Assembly: GCA_025210295.1 (NCBI GenBank)
Contig: JAOASC010000048.1
Span: 186,001 to 250,000, forward strand
Reading direction: 5' to 3'
Source of the DNA: Flavobacteriales bacterium
GTDB taxonomy: Bacteria; Bacteroidota; Bacteroidia; Flavobacteriales_D; Parvicellaceae
Length of the DNA: 64,000 nt
Part shown: in pieces, positions 18,755 through 39,893 of the stretch
Layout of the letters: each line of letters opens with the position of its first letter
How positions within the stretch are numbered: position 1 is the stretch's first letter
Program-made: the position numbers and the translations under genes
Notes under the pieces: model-generated
Seen by the model: the letters and a program-made list of their open reading frames with translations, nothing else
The model's database searches: none
Told to the model about the DNA's origin: nothing

Positions 18755-20257
18755 ATGCGTTATATATTGCTATTATTCCCAATTCTTTTACTCTCATGTA
18801 GGCCTAATAAAAATGTGGCCAAAACCAAAAAGGTGAAGATTGTTGACCGCTACAACTACATTCAAAAGCCAACAGATAAAAGTGTAACCATTGCTTGGGT
18901 TACTAAAGAAGCTTCTTACGGTCAAATAAGATGGGGAACACAAGCCAACCAATTACTCAACAGCATTAAAGATTCTGTGTTGTTACAAAAACACGCTTTT
19001 GAATTAACAGGACTAAAACCTAATACTAAATACTACTACCAAACCAACGCTAAAAACAGTAAAATTGATTATTTCTACACTGCAAAACGAAAGACCGAGA
19101 AAGACTTCTCTTTTCTACATTACGGCGATTGTGGAACCGCTAAACCAGTACAAGATTCCATTGCTAAACTAATGGAACAACAAACCGTTGATTTTGGTTT
19201 AGTAGCTGGAGATGTTGACCAAGATAAAGGAAATAATTACGATGAAGTATTTTTCCAAAAGTATAAAAACATGTTGAGCCACAACTGTCATTATACAGCT
19301 CTTGGAAACCACGACGGTTATTACAATAAAGCATTTACTTATTTAGACGCTTTTCACCTCCCCGTCAACAATGGAAGAAAACCTTCAGAACGTTACTACT
19401 CTTTTACATGGGGAGACGCTAAATTTATTTGTTTAGACTCTAACTATGGAAGAGGCGTTCCCAAAGGAGAAGGCGTACAAAGTGAAGCTCAAAAAGAATG
19501 GTTAGAGCGCGAATTAAAGTGTAATGATAAAAAATGGGTTTTTATTTATTTCCATCATCCAGCATATACTGTTGCCTGGACGGGGGACTATTACCTCCCA
19601 ATAGGTTATTTAGGCTATAAAGGATCGTATAAAATGCAACAAGATTGGATGCAATTGTTCGACAAATACGATGTAGATTTTGTACTAACAGGTCATTCTC
19701 ATTGTTATCAGCGTGGAGAATATAAAGGCACTCAATACGTATTATCTGGAGGTGCTGGTACAAGTGACAATGTCAAACATCCCTACTGGAAAGGCATTGA
19801 CCAAATACATTTAAAGAAAGACAGCACAGGAAAACGCATTAAAAGAAAAGTAAGAAGAACGCCGCTAGACAGCATATATATTGACGGCCAAAAAGTAGAA
19901 GAATTTTACAACGTCCCTTCCATTTTTCCAACAGTAGATATTTTAATTAGACAAAGTAATTTTGTGCGTTTTGATGTGCAAAAAGACACCGTTACCTTTA
20001 TCGCTTTCAACGATAAAGGGCAAATTATAGACAGACAAAGTATAACCAAATCTAATCATCAACTTTCCGACATTTCTATTGAGGGAAATACATTAAAATG
20101 TAATAGAGGTGCTAATCCAAGTTGGTTTTTAGATGGTATTCAGGTAAACGAACAAACTACCACACTTCCTATTCAACAACCAGGAATTTATGAAGTAGAG
20201 TTTACTGATGATCGTGGATGTAGAATTTTATCAGAGGGGATAGAGGTAAAGAATTAA
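18755..20257 (+). CDS. Purple-acid-phosphatase-like metallophosphoesterase lipoprotein
   Basis: A 500-residue lipoprotein with the lipobox LLLSC (Cys15). Residues ~30-115 are a fibronectin-III-like N-domain (TIAWVTKEASYGQIRWG...LKPNTKYYYQT) as in purple acid phosphatases. The metallophosphoesterase core follows with ligands HYGDCGTA, AGDVDQD, LGNHDGYYN, FHHPAYT and TGHSHCYQR, so a dimetal phosphoesterase at the outer surface or periplasm is likely. The tail (NPSWFLDGIQVNEQ...GIYEVEFTDDRGC) resembles a SprB/T9SS-type Ig module. The 3' end overlaps the convergent nucleotidyltransferase gene by 4 bp. Confidence 0.88.
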   Translation: MRYILLLFPILLLSCRPNKNVAKTKKVKIVDRYNYIQKPTDKSVTIAWVTKEASYGQIRWGTQANQLLNSIKDSVLLQKHAFELTGLKPNTKYYYQTNAKNSKIDYFYTAKRKTEKDFSFLHYGDCGTAKPVQDSIAKLMEQQTVDFGLVAGDVDQDKGNNYDEVFFQKYKNMLSHNCHYTALGNHDGYYNKAFTYLDAFHLPVNNGRKPSERYYSFTWGDAKFICLDSNYGRGVPKGEGVQSEAQKEWLERELKCNDKKWVFIYFHHPAYTVAWTGDYYLPIGYLGYKGSYKMQQDWMQLFDKYDVDFVLTGHSHCYQRGEYKGTQYVLSGGAGTSDNVKHPYWKGIDQIHLKKDSTGKRIKRKVRRTPLDSIYIDGQKVEEFYNVPSIFPTVDILIRQSNFVRFDVQKDTVTFIAFNDKGQIIDRQSITKSNHQLSDISIEGNTLKCNRGANPSWFLDGIQVNEQTTTLPIQQPGIYEVEFTDDRGCRILSEGIEVKN

Positions 20258-21321
20258 CTCCCCTCTATTTCTTTATAAAACAAGTCTCTTATTTCATTTA
20301 AAACCACATTCACCTTGTATAAATCAGGTGACAATGGTAAACTTGAGTTTTCATAAATTTTTGGAAGTTCATTCTTTAATTTATCAGCTTTTTCGACTAA
20401 CTCTTCATAAGTAAAACCACCTCGTTTTATTTTTAACAAATATGCTCTATCTTTTCTTAAAACATTTACCTCACTAGTTCTACCTATCTCCCTCGCCATA
20501 TTGAGCAATCGAAAAGTATGCATCATGTTTTTAGCATCGTAGTTTTTACCATGTTCTATTGTTGCTTGATAACGAACATCATTTCGCTTTTCAATCCAAT
20601 CCCAATACTCTTTATAACGTTTACAATAAGCAGAATATCCATCTTTATTATAATAAAGCAACCCTAATGGAACGCTTCCTTTCTCAACCTCACTCATCAA
20701 TAACTGATTAGAATTCTCGCCAATTATCCCCTTATACTTTTCACCAGTATCATAATGTAAGTTATAAGCTTCTTTTAAATTAGGAATTGCTGTCAAGCCA
20801 CATTTATGTTGAGACAAGTTATTTTGTTTCAAAAATTGTTTTAGAGCCATAGATTTTCCACCAACATATACATAACAAAAATCCAATACTTCTTTTCTTT
20901 CTTTAGCCATCGGATTCATTATTTTTTTATTTAACCCTCTAGCTTTTTTTATTTGAGCATAAGCATAATTTCCGAAAGATTGTTCGCATTTACGAGATAA
21001 AAATAGACCTAAACTCAACTTATCGAACAAAGGGTGTTTATACAAAATATGTTGCTCGTCTACTGCCAAAAGTTCTAAAATATTAGGGTTATTCTTAGCA
21101 CACAAACCAACAAACTTATTTAACTCATAGTAAACCACATCGTTTGACTCATCGTTGATTTGATCTACATACTCTAAACTATAATAATGCTCTTTAGGCA
21201 AAACAAACACACCTCTAATATCAGTATCAGATTGAGCAGTAGCTAAACCATAAGATTTGCTACCACTCACACACTCAAATATTATTGAACCTGATTTTTT
21301 TAATTCCTCTATCGTTTTCAT
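20254..21321 (-). CDS. DNA polymerase beta superfamily nucleotidyltransferase (COG3541-like), second gene
   Basis: A 355-residue protein with the nucleotidyltransferase signature GSKSYGLATAQSDTDIRGV near residue 20 (GS plus DxD metal ligands). A helical domain follows (NPNILELLAVDE, NYAYAQIKKARGLNKK). Its ATG overlaps the stop of the upstream nucleotidyltransferase in an ATGA, so the two are coupled. An in-frame GTG 6 nt earlier is less likely. COG3541-type enzymes have been noted in RNA-repair neighbourhoods with RtcB. End-tailing or nucleotidylation of damaged RNA is the natural hypothesis, but the substrate is unknown. It is transcribed from the operator-bearing promoter at 22066-22102. 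Confidence 0.82.
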   Translation of the reverse strand: MKTIEELKKSGSIIFECVSGSKSYGLATAQSDTDIRGVFVLPKEHYYSLEYVDQINDESNDVVYYELNKFVGLCAKNNPNILELLAVDEQHILYKHPLFDKLSLGLFLSRKCEQSFGNYAYAQIKKARGLNKKIMNPMAKERKEVLDFCYVYVGGKSMALKQFLKQNNLSQHKCGLTAIPNLKEAYNLHYDTGEKYKGIIGENSNQLLMSEVEKGSVPLGLLYYNKDGYSAYCKRYKEYWDWIEKRNDVRYQATIEHGKNYDAKNMMHTFRLLNMAREIGRTSEVNVLRKDRAYLLKIKRGGFTYEELVEKADKLKNELPKIYENSSLPLSPDLYKVNVVLNEIRDLFYKEIEGS

Positions 21322-22061
21322 ACGCACCTTAAGAATAAGTCATTAAACTTTTGATAATCTGGTCGTTTAGTCTCCAAGCCTTTTCTTAACTGCTCATTTT
21401 CTTCTATGGTTTCTTGTACAAACGAAACGAGGTCTTTATTTATTTTCTGTGTAAAACCCTCGCTTTCAGATTTCTTTACCTCAATTAAAGTTTCTATTTT
21501 TTTGGTTATACCATCATCCAATAACTCTAATAAGTCGTAAAAACAAACTGGCGAGACAGTTTCTTTATCCAAGATCCATTTTGCAGACAATGAAGTTCTT
21601 AATGCATAAAAGAAACGCTTTAAGTTAACCTCTTTTTTTCTAAGATCTTCTTGGTAATTTTTACTCATACTATGATAATGGTGAAAACCTGCAACTGGAT
21701 TAAACTCTTCATAAGCAAGAGATTTAAATCGCGCTAATACATTATAATTATCCAAGTAAATAACAGGAGAAAAAATCCACCCTAAGAGTGAGGCATTAGA
21801 CTTAGCCAATAGCTTTAATGCTTTACTAACATCCCAACCTGAGCCATCCAAATCTTCTGGAGTCATAAACTCTATAGTATCTTTTTGTTCCCAAAGGTTT
21901 AAGTACCAATCTTTTTTATGTTTATACACAAAACGAATATCATAGTCTGAATCTGGAGAAGCAAAGCCCCAAGCTCTACTCCCCGATTCAACAGCAAATA
22001 ATATTTCTATATTATTTTCCTCCTCTATTTTTCTTAACTTATTTATTATCTGTGTTTTCAT
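21318..22061 (-). CDS. DNA polymerase beta superfamily nucleotidyltransferase (COG3541-like), first gene
   Basis: A 247-residue nucleotidyltransferase. The catalytic motif is FAVESGSRAWGFASPDSDYDIRF (GSRxWG and SDYDIR). It continues with VYKHKKDWYLNL and the helical part SLLGWIFSPVIYLD. It is a paralogue of the downstream gene, but shorter and distinct. The ATG lies only 4 nt after the TTTG of the shared promoter module, so the mRNA may be leaderless. Together the pair form the third unit of the RNA-repair island. Function on RNA ends is inference. Confidence 0.85.
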   Translation of the reverse strand: MKTQIINKLRKIEEENNIEILFAVESGSRAWGFASPDSDYDIRFVYKHKKDWYLNLWEQKDTIEFMTPEDLDGSGWDVSKALKLLAKSNASLLGWIFSPVIYLDNYNVLARFKSLAYEEFNPVAGFHHYHSMSKNYQEDLRKKEVNLKRFFYALRTSLSAKWILDKETVSPVCFYDLLELLDDGITKKIETLIEVKKSESEGFTQKINKDLVSFVQETIEENEQLRKGLETKRPDYQKFNDLFLRCV

Positions 22062-22065
22062 ACTT

Positions 22066-22102
22066 CAAATATCTAAACCATCTACGCAGTCTTTTTGCGT
22101 AA
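22066..22102 (-). promoter_or_regulatory. Shared promoter/operator module, site C (nucleotidyltransferase pair)
   Basis: On the plus strand: CAAA (22066-22069), 12 nt, CTACGCA (22082-22088), 7 nt, TGCGTAA (22096-22102). Read toward the genes, this is an imperfect 7-7-7 palindrome followed by a TTTG that could be the end of the -7 box. The same layout with identical spacing recurs at 24809-24845 and 30102-30138. Confidence 0.75.
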
Positions 22103-22162: not shown

Positions 22163-24397
22163 TTAATCTAACATCAACTGCGTCACTTGAGCAGTATTGC
22201 TCGCCCATTGTATATCATACACTTCATCTGCCGTCTCTTTATCCTCGATAATAACCAAGTTTTGAGCTTCTGCTTTTAATGCTAGTAATCTACCAATTGT
22301 AAACTTAGAGTCTAATTTTTTCAATAAGGCTTCCACACCTTTTAAATCTAAGTTCTGAACAACTTGTCCATCAAATGGTAATTCTAACCAAATCAGTTTT
22401 CTATTTTGAACATCTAATACACCAAACACTAATCCTTTAGCATTTCCCTGTGTAACACGTACTTGATGTTGCACACATGAAGGGTCGTAAGCAACTCCTG
22501 TAGTATCAGATATTCTCATCGGATATTTACTGTTCATCCAACCAACCACCAAGTTTGGTGAAATACTACCATTAGAATAAGCATTACAGGTAAAGCTTAC
22601 ATAGCTCGCTCCTTTTTTAGCCAGTTCATCTACATTGATATCGATATACTCAGCCGTTCCTACTAGATGAGGAATTTGTTGAATATCCCCACTATGCTTA
22701 CAACCTGTTATTCTTAAGCTAGAATATGAGCAAAAATCAGTCTTATTTTTATACGCTACTCTACAACTTAAATCCATATCTAAATGTTGCGCTTTTAACC
22801 CTTTACCCCATTGCATAAATAATCGAACGGTGTCACCTTCTAATTCGAACTTTGTTCCCATCAATGCAGATGGCAAATCCTGAATGGTTTCACTTCTATC
22901 TCCTATTGCCAATGGAATATTATACAAACCAGCGTCAATATAGATCGTTTTGTTTTTATGCTCTACACTTGCAAAACGCTTTTTTAAGGTTTCTAAACAT
23001 AATTCTTCAACCTTTACTTGCATCTTTTTTAACGCTTCATCTCTATACAAAGACAAGTATTTATTAGGCAAAATTCTTTTACTTACTCCACCTAAAGTCT
23101 TCACCATTCGATGTTGAGTTTTATTAAAATACAAAGGCGCATACATGGTTAATGTATATAACAAACGTGCTGGTATTTTATCACTAACCTCAGAAAAATG
23201 CTTCAAAGTAACCGCATCGCCAAACCATAACATATTGGAGAATAAAGAACGTGCAAACAAACCTGGTCTTTCCTTTAACAATTCGAATGTACTTTCTTCA
23301 TCATACTTTAATTTGTAATAGCTCACGTGCCCTGCCCAAACATCATATTTTTGGTTATAAAAAACATCTAGCAATTGGGCTAACTTTTCAAACCCTTTAC
23401 GTTTGCTGTATTCAGCTAAACGCAACGCTCGAATCATTCTTACCCACATTCCTCGTTTAGGGTGCATTTGCTCACAACTTTGTGCTACAGACAATGGTAA
23501 ATTATTTAACCATTCGGCAACCATTTTACACTCTTTTCGGGTGTACTTCAACTTTAAATCTTCAAGCGATTTAATTTTTGCTGCTTCACTATTATCCAAA
23601 ACTGGATGCAAATGCTGGTTGTTTTTAGCAATACGTTTAACAATAACCTTTGGCTCTACCAATTGTAAAAAACCTGTATGCTCGTACCATAAATATCTTA
23701 ACACATCAGTTGGTGTTTTAAATAATCCTTGCACCTCTGAAGCTCTTCCTAATTGCACTAAGTATTGAATGATGATCATTTGTGTTTCTTTTATTGTAAC
23801 CTCAACATCTTTAGGTAATTCTAAATACCCTACCAATACTTTTAAGCTATCTATTTGAGTAGCATCTAACGCTGTTTTCGATTGTAATAAATCCTTGAAA
23901 AAAGCTTTTAAATCATCCTCTGTCCACAACTCAAGAACTTTCATTTTGCTCCCTTGCTCCTCTAATGCTAGTTCACCAAACTCGAATGGTGTACCACAAA
24001 ACGGACAACCATTATAACGTTCTAATGGAAATGTATTTTCAGGAATTACGTGTCCACAAGCTAATGCTGTTCCTTTATTTGATTTAACCAAATTAGTAAA
24101 CCATGTTACAATATGATCTAAACGAGTCTCTCCTGTAGGCTTCCCCCATCCTTTGACTAAAGGCGTCCAATTCTTTTCAACACCTGTCACCTCTTTCAAG
24201 TATTCTAAGATCACCAACTTGTCTTTGGGGGTTAAAGCATTAACAGCATGTAATAACTCCTCTGAAAAAACAAATCCCATTTTGCTTGCCTGAGCAACTA
24301 ATGCTGATGTTGTCTCATTTATTTTTGTGAATGTATTATTAGTAGGCACAACTATTGCTCCTTGTCTTAAACTAACTTTTACAATTTCATTTTTCAT
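22163..24397 (-). CDS. RING-like zinc domain + helical + TerD-like protein (MXAN_6230/SCO0854-like)
   Basis: A 744-residue protein. Residues ~110-140 hold a zinc-finger/RING-like cluster (ALACGHVIPE...YNGCPFCGTPFEFG). The middle (~150-470) is helical-repeat-like, with W.RMIRALRLAEYSKRKG and RPGLFARSLFSNMLWFG. The C-terminal ~200 residues resemble a TerD fold (LDMDLSCRVAY, GCKHSGDIQQIPH, AEYIDINVDELAKKG). This architecture matches, from memory, the MXAN_6230/SCO0854 RING-domain family linked to Ter-type stress systems. It is transcribed behind the tRNA-like RNA array from site B, which suggests an RNA-binding partner role like that of Ro proteins. That is inference. Confidence 0.7.
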   Translation of the reverse strand: MKNEIVKVSLRQGAIVVPTNNTFTKINETTSALVAQASKMGFVFSEELLHAVNALTPKDKLVILEYLKEVTGVEKNWTPLVKGWGKPTGETRLDHIVTWFTNLVKSNKGTALACGHVIPENTFPLERYNGCPFCGTPFEFGELALEEQGSKMKVLELWTEDDLKAFFKDLLQSKTALDATQIDSLKVLVGYLELPKDVEVTIKETQMIIIQYLVQLGRASEVQGLFKTPTDVLRYLWYEHTGFLQLVEPKVIVKRIAKNNQHLHPVLDNSEAAKIKSLEDLKLKYTRKECKMVAEWLNNLPLSVAQSCEQMHPKRGMWVRMIRALRLAEYSKRKGFEKLAQLLDVFYNQKYDVWAGHVSYYKLKYDEESTFELLKERPGLFARSLFSNMLWFGDAVTLKHFSEVSDKIPARLLYTLTMYAPLYFNKTQHRMVKTLGGVSKRILPNKYLSLYRDEALKKMQVKVEELCLETLKKRFASVEHKNKTIYIDAGLYNIPLAIGDRSETIQDLPSALMGTKFELEGDTVRLFMQWGKGLKAQHLDMDLSCRVAYKNKTDFCSYSSLRITGCKHSGDIQQIPHLVGTAEYIDINVDELAKKGASYVSFTCNAYSNGSISPNLVVGWMNSKYPMRISDTTGVAYDPSCVQHQVRVTQGNAKGLVFGVLDVQNRKLIWLELPFDGQVVQNLDLKGVEALLKKLDSKFTIGRLLALKAEAQNLVIIEDKETADEVYDIQWASNTAQVTQLMLD

Positions 24398-24510
24398 ATT
24401 CTTATTTTTTTATTTATTAAATCAGGTAATTCTGTTTCTGTGTTCTATTTGTCCTAAAGATTGAAGTAAGAAACAATTGACCTTAATTCTATGTGATAAT
24501 TAACAAACTG

Positions 24511-24586
24511 CCCTCAAAGGGTAGGATTCGAACCTACATTTTCCAATATGAAGTAAGTTTGTTTTGACCACAAAATGTTATGCTGT
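24511..24586 (-). ncRNA. Second tRNA-like element (T-arm and motif, incomplete cloverleaf)
   Basis: On the minus strand this runs from just after the first tRNA-like RNA. It contains GGTCAA-N7-TTACTTC (24569-24550) and then a perfect T-arm, GTAGG-TTCGAAT-CCTAC (24537-24521), followed by CCTTTGA, which would be the 3' acceptor strand. A clean 5' acceptor partner (TCAAAGG) and a D-arm are not found nearby. It is therefore either a degenerate tRNA mimic or a module that folds with the upstream RNA. Confidence 0.5.
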
Positions 24587-24702
24587 CGGACAGGTGGGAT
24601 TCGAACCCACGACCCGGGCGAAAAAAGCGCGAAGTAAGTTTACCTTGGCCATTGATTGGCAATTAAAAAACTGACCTGCTCTACCAACTGAGCTACTGTC
24701 CG
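24587..24702 (-). ncRNA. tRNA-like RNA with enlarged anticodon/variable region
   Basis: A 116-nt minus-strand element. It has a perfect 7-bp acceptor (CGGACAG/CTGTCCG), TA at positions 8-9, a D-arm GCTC-AGTTGGTA-GAGC, and a perfect T-arm GTGGG-TTCGAAT-CCCAC. Between the D- and T-arms there are ~67 nt instead of ~27. They can form a GGTCA/TGGCC stem with a large loop, then AAGGTAAACTTACTTC and a GCG-CTTTTTT-CGC hairpin. The 3' end reads ACA rather than ACCA. A normal 7-nt anticodon loop on a 5-bp stem cannot be drawn in the standard position. It is a tRNA mimic comparable to YrlA-type Y RNAs, or a tRNA with an insertion; the first is favoured by the adjacent RNA-repair genes. Confidence 0.7.
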
Positions 24703-24808
24703 AAATAGTGCAGGTAATTGTTTAAGTATGATCATTGGTAGTGAGTTGAAGTAACTTAAACTTGACCTTTTCTATTGTTGGAAGAACGTTTTCTTCCTTT
24801 TGACAGTT

Positions 24809-24845
24809 CAAAGGTTAAAACACACTACGCAACCTTTTTGCGCAA
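24809..24845 (-). promoter_or_regulatory. Shared promoter/operator module, site B (tRNA-like array and RING/TerD gene)
   Basis: On the plus strand: CAAA (24809-24812), 12 nt, CTACGCA (24825-24831), 7 nt, TGCGCAA (24839-24845). It matches sites A and C in order and spacing, and shares CAAAGGTT...AAACA with site A. Just downstream, the expected transcript starts with a GGAAGAA/TTCTTCC hairpin (24797-24780). Transcription would enter the tRNA-like array and then the 744-residue gene. Confidence 0.75.
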
Positions 24846-24856
24846 TAAAAAACTTT

Positions 24857-25387
24857 CTATTTTTTTATTTCATTTTTTGCTTTATTATCGTCTTTCTTTA
24901 CTTTTTTCTTTTTGGGCATTTTACTTTTTATCCTTGCTTTAATACTTTGGATATCATCCATCAAATACTCACTATAGGCATTCTTTTTGGCTTCTTTTAA
25001 AGTTTTTAATGCTTGATTATAAGCCTTTCTATATTCCTGCAAAATTGCCCTTTTCAAATGCAATCGTCCTTTTTCTATTCCTTTAAGCGTTAATGCAAAA
25101 TCAATTAAACGCTTGGCTTCATCAAAATCTTCATTGATCATTAAAACATCTGCGTAATAGAAATAAACGTCAAAAGCATAAACATCTATACTGATCGCTT
25201 CACTATAATATGTTTTGGCCAATTCATAATTCTTAAACACATCGGCTTGGACTCTTCCCATTAAGCATAGTGTCATTGGAGATTTATCGTCCATGGAATA
25301 AGCATACTGTAATGCTTCCACAGTTCCTTCCAAATCATAAGGATAGCTGTCTATTGCTTTGATTAAATAGGTATTTATTTGTTCCAT
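24857..25387 (-). CDS. TPR-repeat protein
   Basis: A 176-residue helical-repeat protein with about four TPR-like units: LEGTVEALQYAYSMDDKSPMTLCLMGR, YELAKTYYSEAISIDVYAFDVYFYYADV and FDEAKRLIDFALTLKGIEKGRLHLKRA. The C-terminal tail is very basic (KSKMPKKKKVKKDDNKAK), possibly RNA- or ribosome-binding. Its ATG lies inside the prfH 3' end (13-nt overlap), so it is co-translated with PrfH and may be a partner of it. Its role is unknown. Confidence 0.75.
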   Translation of the reverse strand: MEQINTYLIKAIDSYPYDLEGTVEALQYAYSMDDKSPMTLCLMGRVQADVFKNYELAKTYYSEAISIDVYAFDVYFYYADVLMINEDFDEAKRLIDFALTLKGIEKGRLHLKRAILQEYRKAYNQALKTLKEAKKNAYSEYLMDDIQSIKARIKSKMPKKKKVKKDDNKAKNEIKK

Positions 25388-26076
25388 ATTTCTTTTCTTA
25401 ATTCATTTTTCAGATGATTCCGCTCTTTTTTATAGCGGTTTTTCTGAGTTTTATTCTTTTTAAAATCAGTTCCGTTTATTTTCCGAACAGGATTTCCCCT
25501 TTGTAGATTAAGGTGGTTTTCCCATGTTGCTTGAACCTTTTGTTTGAGTTCTTCTAACTGCTGTTCATAAAACTTTTCGGTCAGGCGAGCTATAGCTATT
25601 TTCTTATTCTGATGCTGAGAGCGGGTATCCATAACGGTTACTGAAACTCCACTTTCTTTATGTATTGCTCGAACAGCAGAACTTACTTTATTGACATGTT
25701 GCCCTCCAGCACCTTGACTTCTCATCGTCTGAAATTGAACATTGCGTAAATCCAATTCTGTAATCATTTTCTCTTCTAATAGAAAAACACCTATAAACCA
25801 ATTTTTTCGTTTATGCATTTTTCGATATTGGCTCTTCCCTACCCATTGGATAGTCCCTACCCAAGTTTCGATAAACTTGGATAAGTCCTTTCCTTCTATA
25901 GCAACAGTTGCAGATTGAAGGGTTCCGTTTTCTAGGCCTTCTGTTCGATGTAGAACAGTATGCTTAAAGTTTTCTTGTTTACATTCTTCCAATATTAACT
26001 TCAAGACCTGAGCGACAACAAAACTGCACTCTACCGGACCTCTTCCTGCTGTTATTTGTATCAATTGCTTCATCAT
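25375..26076 (-). CDS. prfH: Peptide chain release factor homologue PrfH
   Basis: A 233-residue class-I release factor homologue that lacks the stop-codon-recognition domain. It keeps the hydrolysis domain with the GGQ motif (MRSQGAGGQHVNK), followed by VMDTRSQHQNKKIA and a basic C-terminal tail. PrfH is known to be genetically linked to RtcB-type ligases and proposed to release peptides from ribosomes damaged in the decoding centre so that the ligase can reseal 16S rRNA. The context fits exactly: its ATG overlaps the stop of the RtcB gene (ATGA). Confidence 0.93.
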   Translation of the reverse strand: MMKQLIQITAGRGPVECSFVVAQVLKLILEECKQENFKHTVLHRTEGLENGTLQSATVAIEGKDLSKFIETWVGTIQWVGKSQYRKMHKRKNWFIGVFLLEEKMITELDLRNVQFQTMRSQGAGGQHVNKVSSAVRAIHKESGVSVTVMDTRSQHQNKKIAIARLTEKFYEQQLEELKQKVQATWENHLNLQRGNPVRKINGTDFKKNKTQKNRYKKERNHLKNELRKEIWNK

Positions 26077-27473
26077 TTTTTTCCTTTATCCATTCTTACA
26101 ATTCTCGGAATAAACTTCCCTACAACCTCTACTAACTCTAACTGATTCCCCATCACTTTATCAATATCTTTATAAGCCATAGGAGCTTCGTCTAATCCAC
26201 CACTAATTAAGGTCACCTTATTCTCTTTAAGCACTTTCTTCATTTCACTTTTTGTAAAATTCTCCATACACTTTCTTCTAGAAAACACTCTACCTGCTCC
26301 ATGAGATGCGCTTTCTAAACTGTTCTTGTTACCACGTCCTCTAACAATGTAACCTGGTGCTGTCATAGATCCTGGAATAATTCCCAACTCTCCTTTTCTT
26401 GCTGGTGTTGCTCCTTTTCTATGCACAATTGTTTCTGTTCCATTTACCATTTGTTTCCAAGCAAAATTGTGTAGGTTTTGCACTTTCCCAACTGCTCTCA
26501 CCCCAAGTAACTTTGCTATTCTAGCATGAATATCATCGTGACAAGCTTTTGCATAATCTCCTGCCAAACTCATCGCTGCCCAATATTCCCTCCCATCATG
26601 AGAGTTCATGTCTAACCAAGCCAAATGCTGAACTTGCTTAGGCAGAGGACATTGCTTTTCGGCTAAACGTGTATAATGCATTGCTATATTTGCTCCCAAG
26701 CCTCTAGATCCACTGTGTGACAACAATCCAATATATCGTCCTAAAGGCAAATTCCATTCATTATTTTCATCAGTGATATCAACCTCTCCAAACTCTACAA
26801 AGTGATTTCCACTCCCTGAGGAGCCGAGTTGTTTATAGGCTTTTTCTTTTAAACGCTTTACCACATCAATGCTTTGAAATTCATCTCTATAGAAGATATC
26901 GTGATCATGCAGTTTTTTATGGATTTCTTTTGGACCAAACTTCGTGTGCTCTTTTAAAATATTTTCCAAAAACTGTCTTTTCCCATCAATATAGGTTGCG
27001 TTAATTGGAAAAATACTTAAACACATACTACACCCAATATCTACCCCTACACCATAAGGAATAATGGCGTTTTTAGTTGCTAAAACTCCTCCTATTGGTA
27101 AACCATAACCACTATGCGCATCTGGCATTAACGCCCCTGCTACAGCTACTGGCAACTTTAACGACTCAAACAATTGGTGTTTAGCCCCATCAGAAATTTC
27201 ATTTTCTCCAAAGATCACATAAGGTGCTCTTTGAGGATTTAGCTGATGACGTACTGTTTTTTCTTTTTGTAATAATGCTTCTATAATCTTCCCCCAGAAT
27301 GGATCTAATCGATACGCTTCCGGAGTTTTCATTACTTCTTTTAATTCATTGATTACTTTTTCTTTCTTTTCTTTTTTCTTGTATCGATTCAAATGCCCTA
27401 GAGCAATATTTATCGAGTTGTTTTTAGGAAATCCCAGTTTAATGAGGTCTTTCCCAGATATTTTATTTTTCAT
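26073..27473 (-). CDS. rtcB: RtcB-type RNA ligase, PrfH-associated (RtcB2-like)
   Basis: A 466-residue GTP-dependent 3'-phosphate/5'-OH RNA ligase. Seen: metal-ligand motif VDIGCSM (Asp145, Cys148), GSSGSGNHFVEFG, LLSHSGSRGLG, HRKGATPARKGELGIIPGSM, and the guanylation His in SHGAGR. The N-terminus carries an extra basic helical region (KKKEKKEKVINELKEV). Translational coupling to prfH identifies it with the RtcB2-PrfH rRNA-repair pair described in other bacteria. It is only ~25-30% similar by eye to the second RtcB at 28676, so the two probably act on different RNAs. Confidence 0.94.
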   Translation of the reverse strand: MKNKISGKDLIKLGFPKNNSINIALGHLNRYKKKEKKEKVINELKEVMKTPEAYRLDPFWGKIIEALLQKEKTVRHQLNPQRAPYVIFGENEISDGAKHQLFESLKLPVAVAGALMPDAHSGYGLPIGGVLATKNAIIPYGVGVDIGCSMCLSIFPINATYIDGKRQFLENILKEHTKFGPKEIHKKLHDHDIFYRDEFQSIDVVKRLKEKAYKQLGSSGSGNHFVEFGEVDITDENNEWNLPLGRYIGLLSHSGSRGLGANIAMHYTRLAEKQCPLPKQVQHLAWLDMNSHDGREYWAAMSLAGDYAKACHDDIHARIAKLLGVRAVGKVQNLHNFAWKQMVNGTETIVHRKGATPARKGELGIIPGSMTAPGYIVRGRGNKNSLESASHGAGRVFSRRKCMENFTKSEMKKVLKENKVTLISGGLDEAPMAYKDIDKVMGNQLELVEVVGKFIPRIVRMDKGKK

Positions 27474-27485
27474 TTTTGTAATTTT

Positions 27486-28139
27486 TTAACGCTCGTTGTT
27501 ATACGTTTTAACCAACTGAGCTAAATTCTTTTTTACCGAAAGTTTATTCCTTTTATATTTCGAAAGTCCCCAATCTTTATACTTACCTCCTTTCCAATAA
27601 GTGTTATAATAACCTGCTTTATTGAATTGTTGCTCAATCAAATCATCTCTACTTTCTAGTGCTGGATCTATGATTTTGGTATGTGTAACATAAGCTCGTC
27701 TATATCTAATTTTATAAACGTTCTTGGGTATTCTAACATAAAATCGCGTTCGGAATTTTCGTTCTTTTTTGTATTGGAAAGGTGTACATAAACGCTGCGC
27801 TTTTTTACCTAGGCGATTAAACTGCTTTTTACTGATTGTTGGAAGCCCTCTGTAGATACAATATTGGGAAACTTGTTTATCCCATGCTTTTTCGCAATCT
27901 ACTTTGGTCTTTCCCCAAAAAACATGATCGATTAGTTGATATATTTCTAGTATAGCTTCTTGATTTTTGTACCGATCAAGATTTACTGTCAACACAATTT
28001 CCTTATACCAGCCATGTCTTATTGGTTTTTCTAACTTAGCATATCCTAATGCTTTTTTAGTTTCCCAGATTTTTCTTCTTTCCTTTACTAAACTTCGAAC
28101 TTCTTTCTCTCGTTTCGATTTAATGTGTTTAGGTTTCAT
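27486..28139 (-). CDS. Basic conserved hypothetical protein of the RtcB/PrfH unit
   Basis: A 217-residue, highly basic protein with many Lys, Arg, Tyr and Trp residues: IRHGWYKEIVLTVNLDRYKN, FWGKTKVDCEKAW, RFYVRIPKNVYKIRYRRAYVTHTK and YWKGGKYKDWGLSKYKRN. There is no signal peptide or membrane segment. From memory, similar unnamed proteins sit beside RtcB genes in other Bacteroidota. It is 12 nt upstream of the RtcB2-like gene, first in that transcription unit. Basicity and context suggest rRNA or ribosome binding; no fold is recognised. Confidence 0.7.
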   Translation of the reverse strand: MKPKHIKSKREKEVRSLVKERRKIWETKKALGYAKLEKPIRHGWYKEIVLTVNLDRYKNQEAILEIYQLIDHVFWGKTKVDCEKAWDKQVSQYCIYRGLPTISKKQFNRLGKKAQRLCTPFQYKKERKFRTRFYVRIPKNVYKIRYRRAYVTHTKIIDPALESRDDLIEQQFNKAGYYNTYWKGGKYKDWGLSKYKRNKLSVKKNLAQLVKTYNNER

Positions 28140-28675: not shown

Positions 28676-30139
<1,464 letters not shown>

Positions 30140-30177: not shown

Positions 30178-31188
30178 ATGGCTCAAAATAAAAATGCTTT
30201 AATTCGCTATAAGACTATTGATAAGTGTTTACAAAATAACTATAAAAAATGGACTTTAAATGATTTGATTGAAGCTTGTTCTGATGCCTTATATGAATAT
30301 GAGGGAAGAACCATAAACGTGAGTAAACGTACTGTACAACTTGATATACAATTGATGCGAAGCGATAAATTGGGATACAATGCTCCCATTACTGTTTATG
30401 ATAAAAAATATTATCGTTATGATGATCCTAATTATTCGATTACAGACATTCCTTTGACTGAAAACGACATGAATGTGCTCACTGAAACTGTTGAAATGCT
30501 GAAGCAATTTAAAGACTTCTCTCTCTTTTCTGAACTGGGTGGAATTATTCAACGTTTAGAAGATAAAGTCTATACCGAAAAAACACATCAAAATGCTATT
30601 ATTCACTTAGATAAAAATGAACATTTGAAAGGGTTAAAGCATTTAGACACATTGTATCAAGCTATTCTAAAAAAACTTGTTTTGAAAATTGACTATCAAT
30701 CTTTTAAGGCAAGAAAAGCTTCAACCATTATTTTTCATCCATTTATCTTAAAGGAATACAACAACCGATGGTTTTTAGTTGGCAAAAAGAAAAAATCAGG
30801 AAGGATTGATACGCTAGCTTTGGACCGTATGGAAACTATAGACTATGATTTAGACATTCCACACCTGGAGGAAGAGTTTGATGGAGATCACCACTATAAA
30901 AACACTATAGGAGTAACAGTACTCGATGAAGAGCATGTTCAAGATGTTGTTCTAAAGATTGAAAGAACTAATGCCCCCTACGTATTAACAAAACCTCTAC
31001 ATCATTCTCAAGAATTTATCGATAGAGATCAACAAGGTTACGTTACGGTAAAACTAAGGGTTCATATCAATTTTGAACTAGAGCGCTTGATTTTAGGTTT
31101 TGGGGAAACTATTGAAGTTTTAGCCCCTCGATTGCTGCGGAAGAGAATTAGTAAAAAGCTCAATAAAGCAGCAGCTCAATATGGATAA
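30178..31188 (+). CDS. WYL-domain transcriptional regulator of the RNA-repair island
   Basis: A 336-residue protein. The N-terminal winged HTH spans ~1-75 (RYKTIDKCLQNNYKKWTLNDLIEACSDAL...SKRTVQLDIQLMR). A WYL/Sm-like ligand-binding domain covers ~150-230 (LVLKIDYQSFKARKASTIIFHPFILKEYNNRWFLVG, TLALDRMETI). A C-terminal WCX-type extension ends LLRKRISKKLNKAA. WYL regulators are known to sense nucleic-acid ligands and to control RNA-repair and defence loci. The divergent layout and the three identical operator modules point to it as the island's regulator. Direct binding is inference. Confidence 0.88.
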   Translation: MAQNKNALIRYKTIDKCLQNNYKKWTLNDLIEACSDALYEYEGRTINVSKRTVQLDIQLMRSDKLGYNAPITVYDKKYYRYDDPNYSITDIPLTENDMNVLTETVEMLKQFKDFSLFSELGGIIQRLEDKVYTEKTHQNAIIHLDKNEHLKGLKHLDTLYQAILKKLVLKIDYQSFKARKASTIIFHPFILKEYNNRWFLVGKKKKSGRIDTLALDRMETIDYDLDIPHLEEEFDGDHHYKNTIGVTVLDEEHVQDVVLKIERTNAPYVLTKPLHHSQEFIDRDQQGYVTVKLRVHINFELERLILGFGETIEVLAPRLLRKRISKKLNKAAAQYG

Positions 31189-35707: not shown

Positions 35708-36850
35708 ATGATAAAAAAAATATTGGCATTTCTAATAGGCTTTGTCTTAATTTCGTGTAATGGCGAACAACAAAAAAAAGTTTCTCCCAACACCCCTCCC
35801 CAAAAAAATACTGTTAGTACTAAAATAAAATATTCAAAAGGCTTTAAAATCCTTGAAAAAGATGGAATAAAAAAGCTTCTCATACTAGACCCATTTTCCA
35901 ACTATAAAGTACAACAGACCATTGTTTTACTAAAACAACAACAAGCATACACCCCTGCTGAAAATGAGGTTTTGGTCTACACTCCTATACAATCCATCAT
36001 TCCTTTTTCGACTTCGTACATCAGTATGATTGATACGCTAGACAAACTTAATTCGATAGTGGCAATTGAAAACAAAAACTACATTTACAACCAGCGACTT
36101 TTAAACAACGTTTCTGAAGATAAAGTTCGTACTACAGGACCAATTAATCAACTAGACTTAGAAGTCATTCTTACCATTCAACCAGATGTACTTGTCACAA
36201 TAGGCAGCTCAGGAGAACAACCACAACAACTTCAAAAATTAATTCGAGCAGGAATCCCCTCAATCAACAATTATGATTGGAAAGAAAATCACCCACTAGG
36301 AAAAGCTGAGTGGATTAAGTTTTTTGGAGCCTTGTATGAAAAAGAAGCTGAAGCAGAGGCAATATTCAATGGAATTGAGACCAACTATAATCGTTATAAA
36401 AACCTAGTAAAACCCAACCATCCCAACGTTTTATTCTCCTCCCTCTACAACGGGACTTGGTATATTCCAGGAGGGAACAGCTATCCCAGTCAATTTGTAA
36501 AAGATGCAGGAGGTACTTATCCATGGATTAACGATACTACTACAGGAAGCTTACCCCTAAGTTTTGAAACTATTGCTAATAAGCAAGCTCAACCAGACAT
36601 CTGGTTAAACCCCAACTACAATTACATAAAAGACATGACCAATGCCGATTCAAGGTACTTTTCATTCCTAAAGAATGTGAAAGAAAATATTTACAATTCC
36701 AACAAAAGGACAACTCCTCATGGAGGAAACGACTATTGGGAAAAAGGAACTTTAAGACCCGACCTCGTTCTTAAAGATTACATAGAGCTTTTTAAATTAG
36801 ACCTTTGTAATGAAGACTCTTTAGTTTTCTTTAAAAAAGTACATCCTTAA
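35708..36850 (+). CDS. Corrinoid/haem-type ABC transporter substrate-binding lipoprotein (BtuF-like)
   Basis: A 380-residue lipoprotein (lipobox VLISC, Cys17). It has the two-lobe periplasmic binding fold of cobalamin/siderophore receptors: YISMIDTLDKLNSIVAIEN, then LDLEVILTIQPDVLVTIGSSG, WIKFFGALYEKEAEAEAIFN, and GGTYPWIND...LSFETIANKQAQPDIWLNP. It is first in a btuFCD-like operon. A TATATTTG promoter box lies just before the ATG. The cobalamin riboswitch at 38619 follows this operon, so B12 is the likeliest ligand, though haem or siderophore remains possible. Confidence 0.85.
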   Translation: MIKKILAFLIGFVLISCNGEQQKKVSPNTPPQKNTVSTKIKYSKGFKILEKDGIKKLLILDPFSNYKVQQTIVLLKQQQAYTPAENEVLVYTPIQSIIPFSTSYISMIDTLDKLNSIVAIENKNYIYNQRLLNNVSEDKVRTTGPINQLDLEVILTIQPDVLVTIGSSGEQPQQLQKLIRAGIPSINNYDWKENHPLGKAEWIKFFGALYEKEAEAEAIFNGIETNYNRYKNLVKPNHPNVLFSSLYNGTWYIPGGNSYPSQFVKDAGGTYPWINDTTTGSLPLSFETIANKQAQPDIWLNPNYNYIKDMTNADSRYFSFLKNVKENIYNSNKRTTPHGGNDYWEKGTLRPDLVLKDYIELFKLDLCNEDSLVFFKKVHP

Positions 36851-36853
36851 CAC

Positions 36854-37864
36854 TTGAATAAAAAAAGACTAAATATTATTTTTTCATTCGCATTCCTTAT
36901 TTGTCTTGCGATCGGATCACTACTAATAGGCTCCGAAACAATTTCATTAAAAAACCTTTTTAAAAGCGTATTTGACCAATTTCCAAATGCTACACACCGC
37001 TTCATACTTCTTGAAATTAGACTTCCAAGAGTACTAACAGCTTTACTAGCTGGCGCTGGGTTATCAGTATCAGGGTTACTGATGCAAACTTACTTTAGAA
37101 ATAGTCTAGCTGGACCATCCATATTAGGAACAACTTCAGGAGCAAGCTTTGGTGTTGCGTTGACAGTCTTATCATCTTCGTTATTTGGCGTTCAACTTTA
37201 CAATAGTGGCTACTCCATTACCATTGCCTCGATATTAGGTTCGATGGGAGTTCTCTTTTTTATCCTAATGCTAGCGACAAGAGTTGGAAATGGCGTTATT
37301 TTATTAATTATAGGAATTATTTTAAGTAGTTTTTTAGGAGCTACCGTAACTATTCTTCAATATTTTACTGACGCAGAAAACATACAAAAATATATCTTAT
37401 GGACTATGGGGAGCACCAATGCTACAACACTTCAAGATGTTGCACTATTAGCTTCTTGCATCCTACTTGGAGGCATACTCATTCTATTGCTTATCAAACC
37501 ACTGAACGCCTTATTAATTGGAGAAGATTATGCGAAAACCCTGGGGATCAACATTAAAAAGTCAAGATTCCTGATTATTTTAAGTACGGGTATTCTTACG
37601 GGAGGAATTACCGCATTCTGTGGCCCTATCGCTTTTATTGGCTTAGCTGTTCCTCATCTTGTCAAAATCAAAAGTAAATCCGCAAACCACAACTACCTAA
37701 TTCCCCTCACAGCAATTACAGGAGGAATAATAATGCTAATCGCCGATGCTATTGCTCAAGTTCCTTTTAGAGAAATACAACTTCCAATAAATGCTGTTAC
37801 CTCACTAATTGCAGCGCCAATCATTATTTTTGTTATTTTGAAATACCGAAACACCAATGGATAG
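36854..37864 (+). CDS. FecCD/BtuC-family ABC permease
   Basis: A 336-residue inner-membrane permease with ~9-10 transmembrane helices. Family markers: LEIRLPRVLTALLAGAGLSVSG, AGPSILGTTSGASFG, GEDYAKTLGI (the coupling motif) and FCGPIAFIGLAVPHL. The start is a TTG at 36854, 3 nt after the BtuF-like stop. No ATG is available before the first membrane helix, so the TTG is probably real. It overlaps the ATPase gene by 8 nt. Confidence 0.93.
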   Translation: MNKKRLNIIFSFAFLICLAIGSLLIGSETISLKNLFKSVFDQFPNATHRFILLEIRLPRVLTALLAGAGLSVSGLLMQTYFRNSLAGPSILGTTSGASFGVALTVLSSSLFGVQLYNSGYSITIASILGSMGVLFFILMLATRVGNGVILLIIGIILSSFLGATVTILQYFTDAENIQKYILWTMGSTNATTLQDVALLASCILLGGILILLLIKPLNALLIGEDYAKTLGINIKKSRFLIILSTGILTGGITAFCGPIAFIGLAVPHLVKIKSKSANHNYLIPLTAITGGIIMLIADAIAQVPFREIQLPINAVTSLIAAPIIIFVILKYRNTNG

Positions 37865-38573
37865 TCAACTGTTAAAAATAAATGAATTAGCTGTTGGATA
37901 TACTTCAACAATAATATCGAAAATTAATGCTGTGGTTAAAGCTGGTGATTTCATTACTTTGTTTGGCGCTAACGGAGCGGGAAAATCAACATTATTAAAA
38001 ACAATTCTTCAACAGCTCCCCCCAAAAAGTGGTCAACTTTTACTAAATCAAAAAAATATTACTGAGTATTCTAACACTGCTTTAGCCAAAAACATTGCTA
38101 TTGTAAACACCAACAAGAACTTTGACCTCAATCTTACCGTTTATGACATCCTTGCCCTTGGACGAATACCATACTTAAACCTCTTTGGAAAACTAACTCA
38201 ACAAGACCAAGAAATCATCGAAAAGTATATTCAGGAACTAGCATTAAACGCTATTGTTGACAATTATTTTTATCAGCTTTCTGATGGTCAAAAACAAAAA
38301 GTACTTGTTGCCAGAGCGCTTATTCAGGATACAGATTTAATTATACTTGACGAACCAACGGCTCATTTAGACATTAAAAATCGGATTACAATTTTTCAAT
38401 TACTACAGAACATAGCCCATAAAAAACAAAAAGCAATTATTTGTGTCTCACATGAAATTGATATTGCTCTAAAATACGCCTCAAAGGTTTGGTTAATTGA
38501 TAAACACCATAACTTTATCACAGATACTCCTGATAAATTTAACACAGATACAATATACTGTAACTTATTTTAA
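37857..38573 (+). CDS. ABC transporter ATPase (BtuD/FecE-like)
   Basis: A 238-residue nucleotide-binding subunit. The Walker A is GANGAGKSTLLK, the signature is QLSDGQKQKV, the Walker B is DLIILDEPTAHLD, and the switch His is in ICVSHEID. It energises the permease encoded just upstream, with which it overlaps by 8 nt. It is the last gene before the cobalamin riboswitch. Confidence 0.94.
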   Translation: MDSQLLKINELAVGYTSTIISKINAVVKAGDFITLFGANGAGKSTLLKTILQQLPPKSGQLLLNQKNITEYSNTALAKNIAIVNTNKNFDLNLTVYDILALGRIPYLNLFGKLTQQDQEIIEKYIQELALNAIVDNYFYQLSDGQKQKVLVARALIQDTDLIILDEPTAHLDIKNRITIFQLLQNIAHKKQKAIICVSHEIDIALKYASKVWLIDKHHNFITDTPDKFNTDTIYCNLF

Positions 38574-38618
38574 CAAGTATAGTATTTTCATTTTCAAACT
38601 TTTTACTACTTTCGCGTT

Positions 38619-38785
38619 GCTTATTGGTTTTCGATTTTCGAAATTAAAAGGGAATCAAGTGAAACTCTTGAACTATTCCCGTAGCTGTAAGTTTCTTAAC
38701 AACTAGCTTATTTATCCACTGTTTCTGAATGGAAATGGGAAGGAAAAGCTCGTTTGGAAATAAGTCAGAAGACCTGCCAACAAGC
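38619..38785 (+). promoter_or_regulatory. Cobalamin (adenosylcobalamin-type) riboswitch
   Basis: The class I B12 aptamer is clear. P1 is formed by GCTTATTGG (38619-38627) with CCAACAAGC (38777-38785). The core has AAAAGGGAATC...GTGAAAC, CCCGTAGCTGTAA (38678-38690), CCACTG...GGGAAGG, and the diagnostic AGTCAGAAGACCTGCC (38763-38778). Downstream, about 120 nt precede the DUF4465-like gene. It should repress when B12 is plentiful. Confidence 0.95.
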
Positions 38786-38906
38786 GGACTTATAGCTTTC
38801 GGGATAAAAGCAAAAGAGTATTAATAGCCCAGTAGAGTTCTTCTACAGGGAATTCTTATTCTATGTTTTTATCTTTTTTTTAATTAATTCATTTAAACAA
38901 AAAAAG

Positions 38907-39893
38907 ATGAAAAAATTTTACATTGCAATCGCTGTATTAACAGCAAACCTATCTTATTCACAAACGGTGGATTTTGAATCAGTAAGCCTAGCTCCAGAGA
39001 GTGCTTGGGATGGATCAGACTTATCAGGAACACCTAATTCTGACACTACAGCTTATGACAGTACCTTTGTTTTTACGGGAGGGTTAACGATGAACAACCA
39101 ATGGAACTCACAATACGGTTATTTGTCAGACGGTTGGGTTTTCTCAAACAAAACCGACGATACGACTCAACAGTTAGCAGGAGCATACCATAGTTATGCT
39201 GGAGGTGGAGCAAACAACTCTAGCAACTATGCAGTTTCTTACATTGGTGGAGGGCAAATAATCCAACTGGAAAACAATACCGAAGCAACATTTACCAGTA
39301 TTGATGTTACCAACAATAATTACGCTGCTTTATCAATGTTAAATGGTGATAACTTAGCTAAAAAATTTGGAGGAACTACAGGAGATGATGAAGATTGGTT
39401 TTTACTAGACATTATTGGTTATACTGCTAATGGAAATGTGGTGGACACCATTAAATTCTATTTAGCTGATTATCGTTTTTCTGACAATTCACAAGATTAT
39501 ATAATTAAAGATTGGACTTCTGTTGATTTAAGTTCACTTGGAGCTATCAACAAAATAAGGTTTGAGCTTTCATCAACTGACAATGGACAATTTGGAATGA
39601 ATACACCAGCGTACCTAGCTATTGATAATGTTAGTTTTGGTTTTGCAAATGTTAATGAGATACTTGTAAATAAATTTAATGTTTATCCTAACCCATCTAA
39701 TGGAATAATCAATTTTGATGAAGTATTTGAACATGGAACAATTTCAGTATATAACCTTAATGGTCAAGTTGTTTATAATAAAGACATCAATACAACAACA
39801 AAGACAATGGATCTTTCATTCTTAACCAATGGAATCTATACTTTAGTTGTAACAACTGATGAAATATACACTACCCGATTCATCAAACATTAA
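38907..39893 (+). CDS. T9SS-sorted surface protein, DUF4465-like, B12-regulated
   Basis: A 328-residue exported protein with signal peptide MKKFYIAIAVLTANLSYSQ. Residues ~20-245 match the DUF4465 layout (VDFESVSLAPESAWDGSDLSG, FNN-type NQWNSQYGYLSDGWVFSN, YADYRFSDNSQDYIIKDW-like strands). A T9SS sorting domain follows (FNVYPNPSNGIINF...GIYTLVVTTDEIYTTRFIKH). The gene stands directly behind the cobalamin riboswitch. DUF4465-type proteins have been linked to surface corrinoid binding in gut Bacteroidetes; here a T9SS anchor replaces the lipoprotein one. B12 capture is the inferred role. Confidence 0.85.
   Translation: MKKFYIAIAVLTANLSYSQTVDFESVSLAPESAWDGSDLSGTPNSDTTAYDSTFVFTGGLTMNNQWNSQYGYLSDGWVFSNKTDDTTQQLAGAYHSYAGGGANNSSNYAVSYIGGGQIIQLENNTEATFTSIDVTNNNYAALSMLNGDNLAKKFGGTTGDDEDWFLLDIIGYTANGNVVDTIKFYLADYRFSDNSQDYIIKDWTSVDLSSLGAINKIRFELSSTDNGQFGMNTPAYLAIDNVSFGFANVNEILVNKFNVYPNPSNGIINFDEVFEHGTISVYNLNGQVVYNKDINTTTKTMDLSFLTNGIYTLVVTTDEIYTTRFIKH

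Follow-up and report, generated by a model that had tools for sequence, protein, structure and literature searches.

A 64,000-nucleotide stretch of a Flavobacteriales genome (contig JAOASC010000048.1, positions 186,001 to 250,000; the window in what follows) carries, on one strand, a second RtcB-like ligase gene, genes for a 217-residue charged protein, RtcB, PrfH and a TPR protein, an RNA array, the gene for a 744-residue protein and two genes for RlaP-type nucleotidyltransferases, with the gene for a WYL regulator divergent from them. The 744-residue protein and its array are the subject here. The open reading frame was confirmed at 22163-24397 on the minus strand, exactly where a first-pass annotation made from the letters alone had placed it, and its product is conserved over the full length, at 55-65% identity and with no stops, in 18 relatives. 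That annotation's claim of an RNA array in the mRNA leader also stands: the leader holds four copies of GGYCAA-N6-[CG]TTACTTC, at 24463, 24550, 24631 and 24748, the motif occurs nowhere else in the window, and an array is kept upstream of the gene in all 18 relatives.

A covarying RNA module

The module consists of GGYCAA-N7-UUACUUC paired with a partner strand, N7'-[ACG]AUUAYC, which lies 37-78 nt downstream of the motif in stem-closed units and just upstream of it in the tRNA unit, where the module stem therefore points the opposite way. Partner strands were picked by their conserved tail alone and not by N7' pairing, and in 80 units 6.61 of the 7 positions of N7 and N7' pair, against a mean of 3.56 and a maximum of 4.2 in 5000 permutations and 2.5-3.4 in shifted registers. 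Among 50 distinct modules 95.8% of cells are paired, two-sided changes occur at eight pairs, and the covariation score is 0.662, compared with 0.175 for shuffled and 0.06-0.18 for slid alignments. C4, which is unpaired, A5, A6 and UUAC-U-C are invariant across modules, the search pattern itself fixing several of these positions, C4 included. The modules are genuine RNA structures. Every one rests on the stem GGY-C-AA-N7 / N7'-[ACG]A-UUAYC, in which the unpaired C never varies, next to an equally constant UUACUUC flank, and an array that is kept and covaries to this extent is far beyond chance. A relation to the 16S decoding site, whose complement the module strand partly resembles, was considered and dropped, as N7 varies freely.

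Three of the four units (A, C and E) are stem-closed, and unit C carries a tRNA T-arm. Units C and D, the latter present in some relatives, combine the stem and its unpaired C with a T-arm and a D-loop-like GG, and in one relative (L029) there is a hairpin closed by GCAA. The description of the array as tRNA mimics holds for unit B, a complete tRNA with an insertion, and for the T-arm of unit C, but not for the other two units. As a whole the array RNAs are an uncatalogued family of small structured, partly tRNA-like RNAs: in Rfam scans for YrlA and other RNAs only tRNA reached threshold, tmRNA staying below its cut-off and nothing else being convincing down to an E value of 5. Arrays hold 4-8 different units, and in 16 of 18 loci the last one ends 21-30 nt before the start codon.

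The tie between gene and module was followed by an exact search for the module strand in 395 genomes of the phylum Bacteroidota. The 744-residue protein gene is present in 11 of them, and the same 11 are all the genomes with more than one module match, always beside the gene; none of the 384 genomes without the gene has more than one, and three have single isolated matches, a level similar to that of isolated matches to a backward control pattern. Within 19 loci the module never occurs outside the array. Gene and module occur strictly together within the sampled Bacteroidota, and because they do so the protein and the array RNAs probably work together in handling damaged RNA. Modules precede the gene also in a Chitinophagales metagenome-assembled genome, in Hymenobacter volaticus, in Segatella hominis and in a further family of the class, so the pairing extends over Chitinophagales, Hymenobacteraceae, Prevotellaceae and further families of the same class, some instances being on plasmids. 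The plasmid of a human isolate of Segatella hominis (L053) has the gene with a three-unit array that includes the tRNA unit, and a WYL gene about 6 kb off. The array can degenerate without loss of the gene: in another relative (L032) it has shrunk to a single tRNA unit, 180 nt upstream of the gene, whose anticodon stem is poor.

The 744-residue protein

By sequence the protein is a distant relative, below the curated cut-off, of the MXAN_6230/SCO0854 RING-domain family: the NF041916 profile matches residues 11-678 with 139 bits, the family cut-off being 600. A search of genome contigs with the protein found one relative, and a search of viral contigs gave no match. The zinc cluster has C114, H116, C131 and C134 invariant in 19 aligned sequences, with no other invariant Cys or His in the cluster. 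A RING finger has eight zinc ligands and here there are four, so what had been called RING-like is a real four-ligand Cys/His cluster but half a RING at best, the match to Prok-RING_4 being partial (residues 112-135) and, at 21.6 bits, under the cut-off of 27. The long helical part and the TerD-like C-terminus of the first-pass annotation have both held up. AlphaFold models place a helical middle at residues ~160-480 and a beta-rich C-terminus beyond it (full model predicted local distance difference test, pLDDT, 67; predicted template modelling score, pTM, 0.40). The fold of residues 520-690 is that of TerD, with a Foldseek E value of 2.8e-4 to 2kxt and a VIA-align Z score of 14.1 to 3ibz; D540-x-D542-x-S544 and H568-S-G-D571 are invariant, and no Pfam profile matches this domain by sequence.

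Comparison of the helical part leads to Ro60. With the full model, Thermus phage phiLo Ro60 (9l5y) leads the matches other than TerD (VIA-align Z 7.4 over 231 residues). When the helical domain is modelled alone (pLDDT 77), the top VIA-align match is the Deinococcus Ro protein 2nvo (Z 7.0, 250 of 345 residues), followed by the human Ro60 complexes 9nfa (Z 6.1, 264 residues) and 9nep (Z 5.7, 266 residues). Ro60s are the only full-length structural matches of the domain, the other rows above Z 5 covering about 90-190 residues. The structure prediction suggested by the earlier annotation has thus yielded the TerD fold, with Ro60s as the best helical matches, but at Z 6-7.4 the helical fold is only suggestive of the HEAT-repeat ring of Ro60: a lead strengthened by its context and not a sign of membership.

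Membership of the TROVE family was considered and is ruled out by sequence, PF05731 giving no match in the protein and comparison by hhalign with Bacteroidota TROVE proteins returning a probability of 0.1 and no homology. Nor does the genome itself contain a TROVE match, and the C-terminus holds no vWA domain, the TerD fold being there instead. Judged by the defining features tested the protein is not a Ro protein, and its modelled layout resembles that of the RNA chaperone Ro60.

Repair genes and operators at the locus

A palindrome with the consensus CTRCGCA-N7-TGCGYA has three sites in the 4.2-Mb genome, all of them in the repair locus. In relatives it stands before the array in nearly all cases and also before genes for WYL or RtcB, as a rule with a TTTG element after it. 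The shared operator marks one regulon next to the WYL regulator, by which it would be bound. In L037 and L041 more copies lie 4.2-6 kb downstream of the 744-residue protein gene, before other genes, which suggests further members of the regulon. The pairs L020/L037 and L024/L041 have units A+B duplicated upstream, with an operator-like palindrome before each copy.

Coordinates at the locus are given in the table below. The second RtcB-like ligase has a copy 71-73% identical in six relatives, and the 217-residue charged protein matched no family, and tblastn did not find it in the loci of relatives. A WYL gene and an RtcB gene are often near in relatives, as in part are RlaP and clusters of accessory tRNA genes. 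These clusters, seen in relatives of the same order, comprise 3-7 genes just upstream of the array (L029 12584-13400, L030 6832-7448, L033 12642-13500, L034 and L035) and include tRNAs for Ser, Cys, Pro, Tyr, Gln, Leu, Phe, His and Arg; they look as if they were a reserve tRNA set belonging to the repair island. A scan with an anti-phage library returned only WYL and one weak match for the TPR protein. Elsewhere in the window a cobalamin riboswitch (106 bits, 38608-38795, + strand) sits between genes for BtuF/BtuC/BtuD-like transporter components (35708-38573) and a gene for a secreted protein at 38907.

Table. Genes, protein domains, RNA units and operator sites of the repair locus, in window positions
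Feature	Position	Strand	Remark
Second RlaP-like nucleotidyltransferase	20254-21327	-	PF10127, 89 bits
RlaP (RNA-repair pathway polymerase-beta nucleotidyltransferase)	21318-22061	-	PF10127, 242 bits
Palindromic operator, second site	22082-22101	.	before RlaP genes
744-residue zinc-cluster/helical/TerD protein	22163-24397	-	distant relative of NF041916, MXAN_6230/SCO0854
TerD-fold domain, residues 520-690	22328-22840	-	Foldseek, VIA-align, conserved residues
Helical-repeat domain, residues 162-476, arrangement suggestive of Ro60/TROVE	22970-23914	-	VIA-align
Zinc cluster C114-x-H116 ... C131-x2-C134, residues 114-134, half-RING-like	23996-24058	-	
Array unit E, GGTCAA-TTGTTTC-TTACTTC ... GAAACAG-AATTACC, stem-closed	24425-24482	-	28 nt before start codon
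Array unit C, GGTCAA-AACAAAC-TTACTTC ... [ATTGG + T-arm] ... GTTTGTT-AATTATC	24495-24569	-	fold z -2.85
Array unit B, tRNA with module inside 5' strand of anticodon stem	24586-24702	-	Rfam tRNA 47.3 bits; acceptor 7/7
44-nt insertion in unit B	24631-24674	-	removal gives GGGCG-CTTTTTT-CGCCC (Lys UUU); ARAGORN calls no tRNA until it is removed, then tRNA-Lys
Array unit A, GGTCAA-GTTTAAG-TTACTTC ... CTTAAAC-AATTACC	24713-24767	-	fold z -2.67
Palindromic operator CTACGCA-N7-TGCGCA	24825-24844	.	before RNA array
Small TPR protein	24857-25387	-	weak TPR matches
PrfH release factor	25375-26076	-	TIGR03072, 225 bits, cut-off 167
RtcB RNA ligase (PrfH-linked)	26073-27473	-	PF01139, 271 bits
217-residue highly charged protein	27486-28139	-	like charged RtcB-PrfH accessory proteins (PMC6514570)
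Second RtcB-like ligase	28676-30079	-	PF01139, 127 bits
Palindromic operator, third site	30118-30138	.	divergent rtcB/WYL promoter region
WYL-domain transcription regulator	30178-31188	+	PF13280 and PF25583 above cut-off; kept beside locus in relatives

An RNA-repair island with a proposed Ro-type particle

The reading preferred here, to which we give a little better than an even chance, is a WYL-controlled RNA-repair island with its own Ro-type ribonucleoprotein, RNA binding being predicted. The island holds RtcB, PrfH and RlaP and one shared operator, and we infer that the 744-residue protein serves in RNA binding, recruitment, sensing and feedback. Its helical domain would be a Ro60-like scaffold that holds module stems in the way that Ro60 holds Y RNAs by their bulged-C stem. 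What the stems carry as inserts (T-arm, D-loop-like GG, sometimes an acceptor-like hairpin, or a whole tRNA) would draw broken tRNAs, or enzymes that act on tRNA, to RtcB and RlaP; TerD, at the place that vWA has in Ro, may sense a stress signal or Ca2+; and, with the last unit near the start codon, the protein could feed back on its own mRNA.

Several points weigh against the Ro-type particle. The Ro60 matches (Z 5.7-7.4 over 230-266 residues) stay below Z 8, taken as the safe level for fold matches among helical repeats, and their rmsd values are large. The likeness rests on VIA-align, as Foldseek of the middle domain alone gave no match below 0.001, and the confidence of the models is moderate (pLDDT 67 and 77). 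The TROVE profile is without a match in the protein at E 0.1. Units A and E lack a recognisable tRNA feature, and C4 may lie in an internal loop (CAA / [ACG]AUU) instead of forming a single bulge, since a neighbouring A-U is lost in some units.

A further point comes from distant homologues. Homologues lacking an adjacent tRNA-like RNA, which the first-pass annotation had named as telling against its proposal, are absent inside the sampled Bacteroidota, but outside them the module is missing beside the homologues, about 25% identical, of Variovorax, Streptomyces, Vibrio and Deinococcus, and no Rfam RNA was found there either. The basic function of the family therefore cannot depend on the module, and the array RNAs are a feature of the Bacteroidota branch and not of the whole family. 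The Variovorax homologue (L055 6909-12112, on a plasmid) is next to rtcR and transcribed away from it, which connects a homologue that lacks the RNA module with Rtc repair in Proteobacteria, and RNA ligases are near the Streptomyces and Vibrio homologues. With such genes close to homologues that have no module, the association with RNA repair seems to predate the array.

The tRNA unit and other explanations

Either the module is removed from the tRNA unit or the anticodon arm is kept for display, and the unit can give a usable accessory tRNA only if removal occurs. Another reading accordingly takes the module for a small intron-type splicing element: in the tRNA unit an intron would be excised, by some nuclease or autocatalytically, with the island's RtcB as the sealing ligase, while the permuted halves of A, C, D and E would give small circular RNAs. 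This reading is possible, though on the unlikely side, and the effect of excision argues for it. With cut sites chosen for maximal pairing, in real units and null alike, a single excision gives a full 5-bp anticodon stem in 16 of 22 module-bearing tRNA units, against 3.8% with shuffled flanks; a stem of at least 4 bp results in 20 of the 22 (null 24%), and a full stem together with U33 in 13 (null 1.6%). ARAGORN reports none of the 22 as tRNAs before excision and 21 after it, the latter count being helped by the choice of cut sites, and a 23rd tRNA unit, from Segatella, has a 5/5 restored stem. Many of the 22 units come from species related to one another and are not independent, yet the stems that excision restores vary from lineage to lineage (GGACA/TGTCC, GGGCA/TGCCC, GGGCG/CGCCC, CAGGA/TCCTG, TCGCA/TGCGA), and the restored anticodons include UUU, UCU, CCU, GUU, GGG, AGG, UUG, GUG and UAA.

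Other observations on the side of splicing are a module-free tRNA-Lys (UUU) at L009 6695-6769, in a slot where other units have the module, and insertion loops that house a second complete module unit, in L044 (an insertion of 154 nt, in a tRNA unit 389 nt upstream of the gene) and in L009 (about 300 nt, in one 734 nt upstream). RtcB is the tRNA-splicing ligase of archaea and animals. On the other hand the inferred cut sites vary, from about 2-9 nt 5' to 0-7 nt 3' of the module, with no fixed position relative to the recognition motif in the 22 tRNA units, unlike the cuts of known splicing endonucleases; six of the 22 are without a perfect stem; and none of A, C, D and E carries a whole tRNA as its insert. 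Neither a candidate endonuclease nor a ribozyme match turned up, and Rfam gave no group I intron match in the window or the array. In two relatives the tRNA unit is the sole tRNA-like Arg(CCU) match, which does not prove splicing, CCU being probably dispensable when UCU is present. A bolder proposal, and a rather doubtful one, would make the module a new kind of tRNA intron in bacteria, with cleavage at the anticodon arm and ligation by the adjacent RtcB; permuted copies would give small circular tRNA-like RNAs, bound by a Ro-like TerD protein.

Were the anticodon arm instead kept for display, the array RNAs might be decoys or sensors for anticodon nucleases, their anticodon loops and elbows standing in for those of tRNAs as targets of cutting or binding, with the fragments, or free protein, then switching on the WYL regulon. 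PrrC and colicins D and E5 are anticodon nucleases, and the restored anticodons Lys UUU, Arg UCU/CCU and Asn GUU are of the classes that known anticodon nucleases cut. Accessory tRNA clusters adjoin the locus. The Salmonella RNA-repair operon is induced by tRNA fragments and its YrlA has been proposed as a competitive inhibitor, but YrlA itself is not cut (PMC7790460). With the other units lacking an anticodon loop, and the anticodon stem having to form across the inserted helix, such decoys or sensors are unlikely.

That the array is a cis-acting leader only, an attenuator or protein-binding control region of the 744-residue protein gene with no function in trans, would suit its position in the leader of one gene per genome and the nearness of the last unit to the start codon. 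Decidedly unlikely is nonetheless the word for it: 4-8 different units, one of them a complete tRNA, far exceed the needs of an attenuator, and whole A+B pairs are duplicated upstream behind palindromes in the four loci named above. A decaying, functionless cluster of tRNA pseudogenes, which the adjoining accessory tRNA genes and the reduction of L032 to one unit might bring to mind, is refuted by the strong covariation and strict co-occurrence, to which the invariant core and the order of units across families can be added.

Relation to known systems

Among protein families the nearest relative is the MXAN_6230/SCO0854 RING-TerD family (NF041916; Pfam Prok-RING_4). Its domain order is identical to that of the 744-residue protein, the profile match runs end to end, and some relatives of this type adjoin rtcR or RNA ligases; the protein differs in falling far under the family cut-off, and distant members of the family are without the RNA module.

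The gene set is that of an RtcB-PrfH (RFH) operon for the repair of ribosomes and RNA. Such operons are known with TPR, polymerase-beta and charged accessory proteins (PMC6514570), and RtcB beside PrfH, a TPR protein, a polymerase-beta nucleotidyltransferase and a charged accessory protein are all present here; RtcB2-PrfH protects against colicin E3 cleavage of 16S rRNA (PMC9223846). Neither an RNA array nor a zinc-cluster/TerD protein is mentioned for these operons in the available text of the two papers.

Archaeal and eukaryotic tRNA introns and permuted tRNA genes (PMC4090602, PMC3978253) share with unit B the insertion in the anticodon region, the restoration of a tRNA on removal and the presence of RtcB. 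Unlike them, unit B is bacterial, its cut sites are not fixed with respect to the motif and it comes with no known endonuclease. In the tRNA unit, bacterial RtcB has a definite candidate for a natural substrate among tRNAs.

A parallel in layout is that with Ro and Y RNAs. Y RNAs bind Ro60 via the conserved bulged C (C9) of their terminal stem, a feature kept in bacterial Y RNAs (PMC4030889), and YrlA joins a stem of the bulged-C type to a tRNA-like domain (PMC8394870). The array RNAs likewise end in a stem in which an unpaired C is conserved, in a bulge or an internal loop, and have tRNA-like parts. Units C and D, with T-arm and D-loop-like GG on such a stem and, in unit D of some relatives, a closed acceptor-like hairpin, recall the plan of YrlA, whose tRNA-like domain has D, T and acceptor arms; A and E do not. 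Bacterial Y RNAs differ in that the array has 4-8 units with a different conserved core, one unit lying inside a tRNA. As to the protein, both have a second domain after the helical one, TerD here and vWA in Ro60 (Rsr), from which the 744-residue protein also departs in having no TROVE sequence and an extra zinc cluster. Salmonella rsr-yrlBA-rtcBA, an RNA-repair operon (PMC7790460, PMC8394870), resembles the locus in having a gene for an RNA-binding type of protein with adjacent small RNAs, RtcB in the locus and a divergent regulator of its own; RlaP and PrfH are here in place of RtcA, and WYL in place of RtcR. The analogy with Ro/Y-RNA gene pairs drawn in the first-pass annotation thus keeps the co-occurrence of gene and array (11/11), the unpaired-C stem, the RNA-repair setting and Ro60s as best helical matches, and loses TROVE sequence and vWA. 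Its mode of action is probably that of a Ro/Y-RNA-RtcB system, to judge by what the analogy keeps.

What bacterial Ro/Y-RNA-RtcB operons do is itself an open question. The part that TerD domains play in stress systems is little understood, and here one of them is tied to a defined RNA. As a system of the same logic has apparently been put together from a different protein and an uncatalogued RNA family, comparison of the two would reveal what is essential to both.

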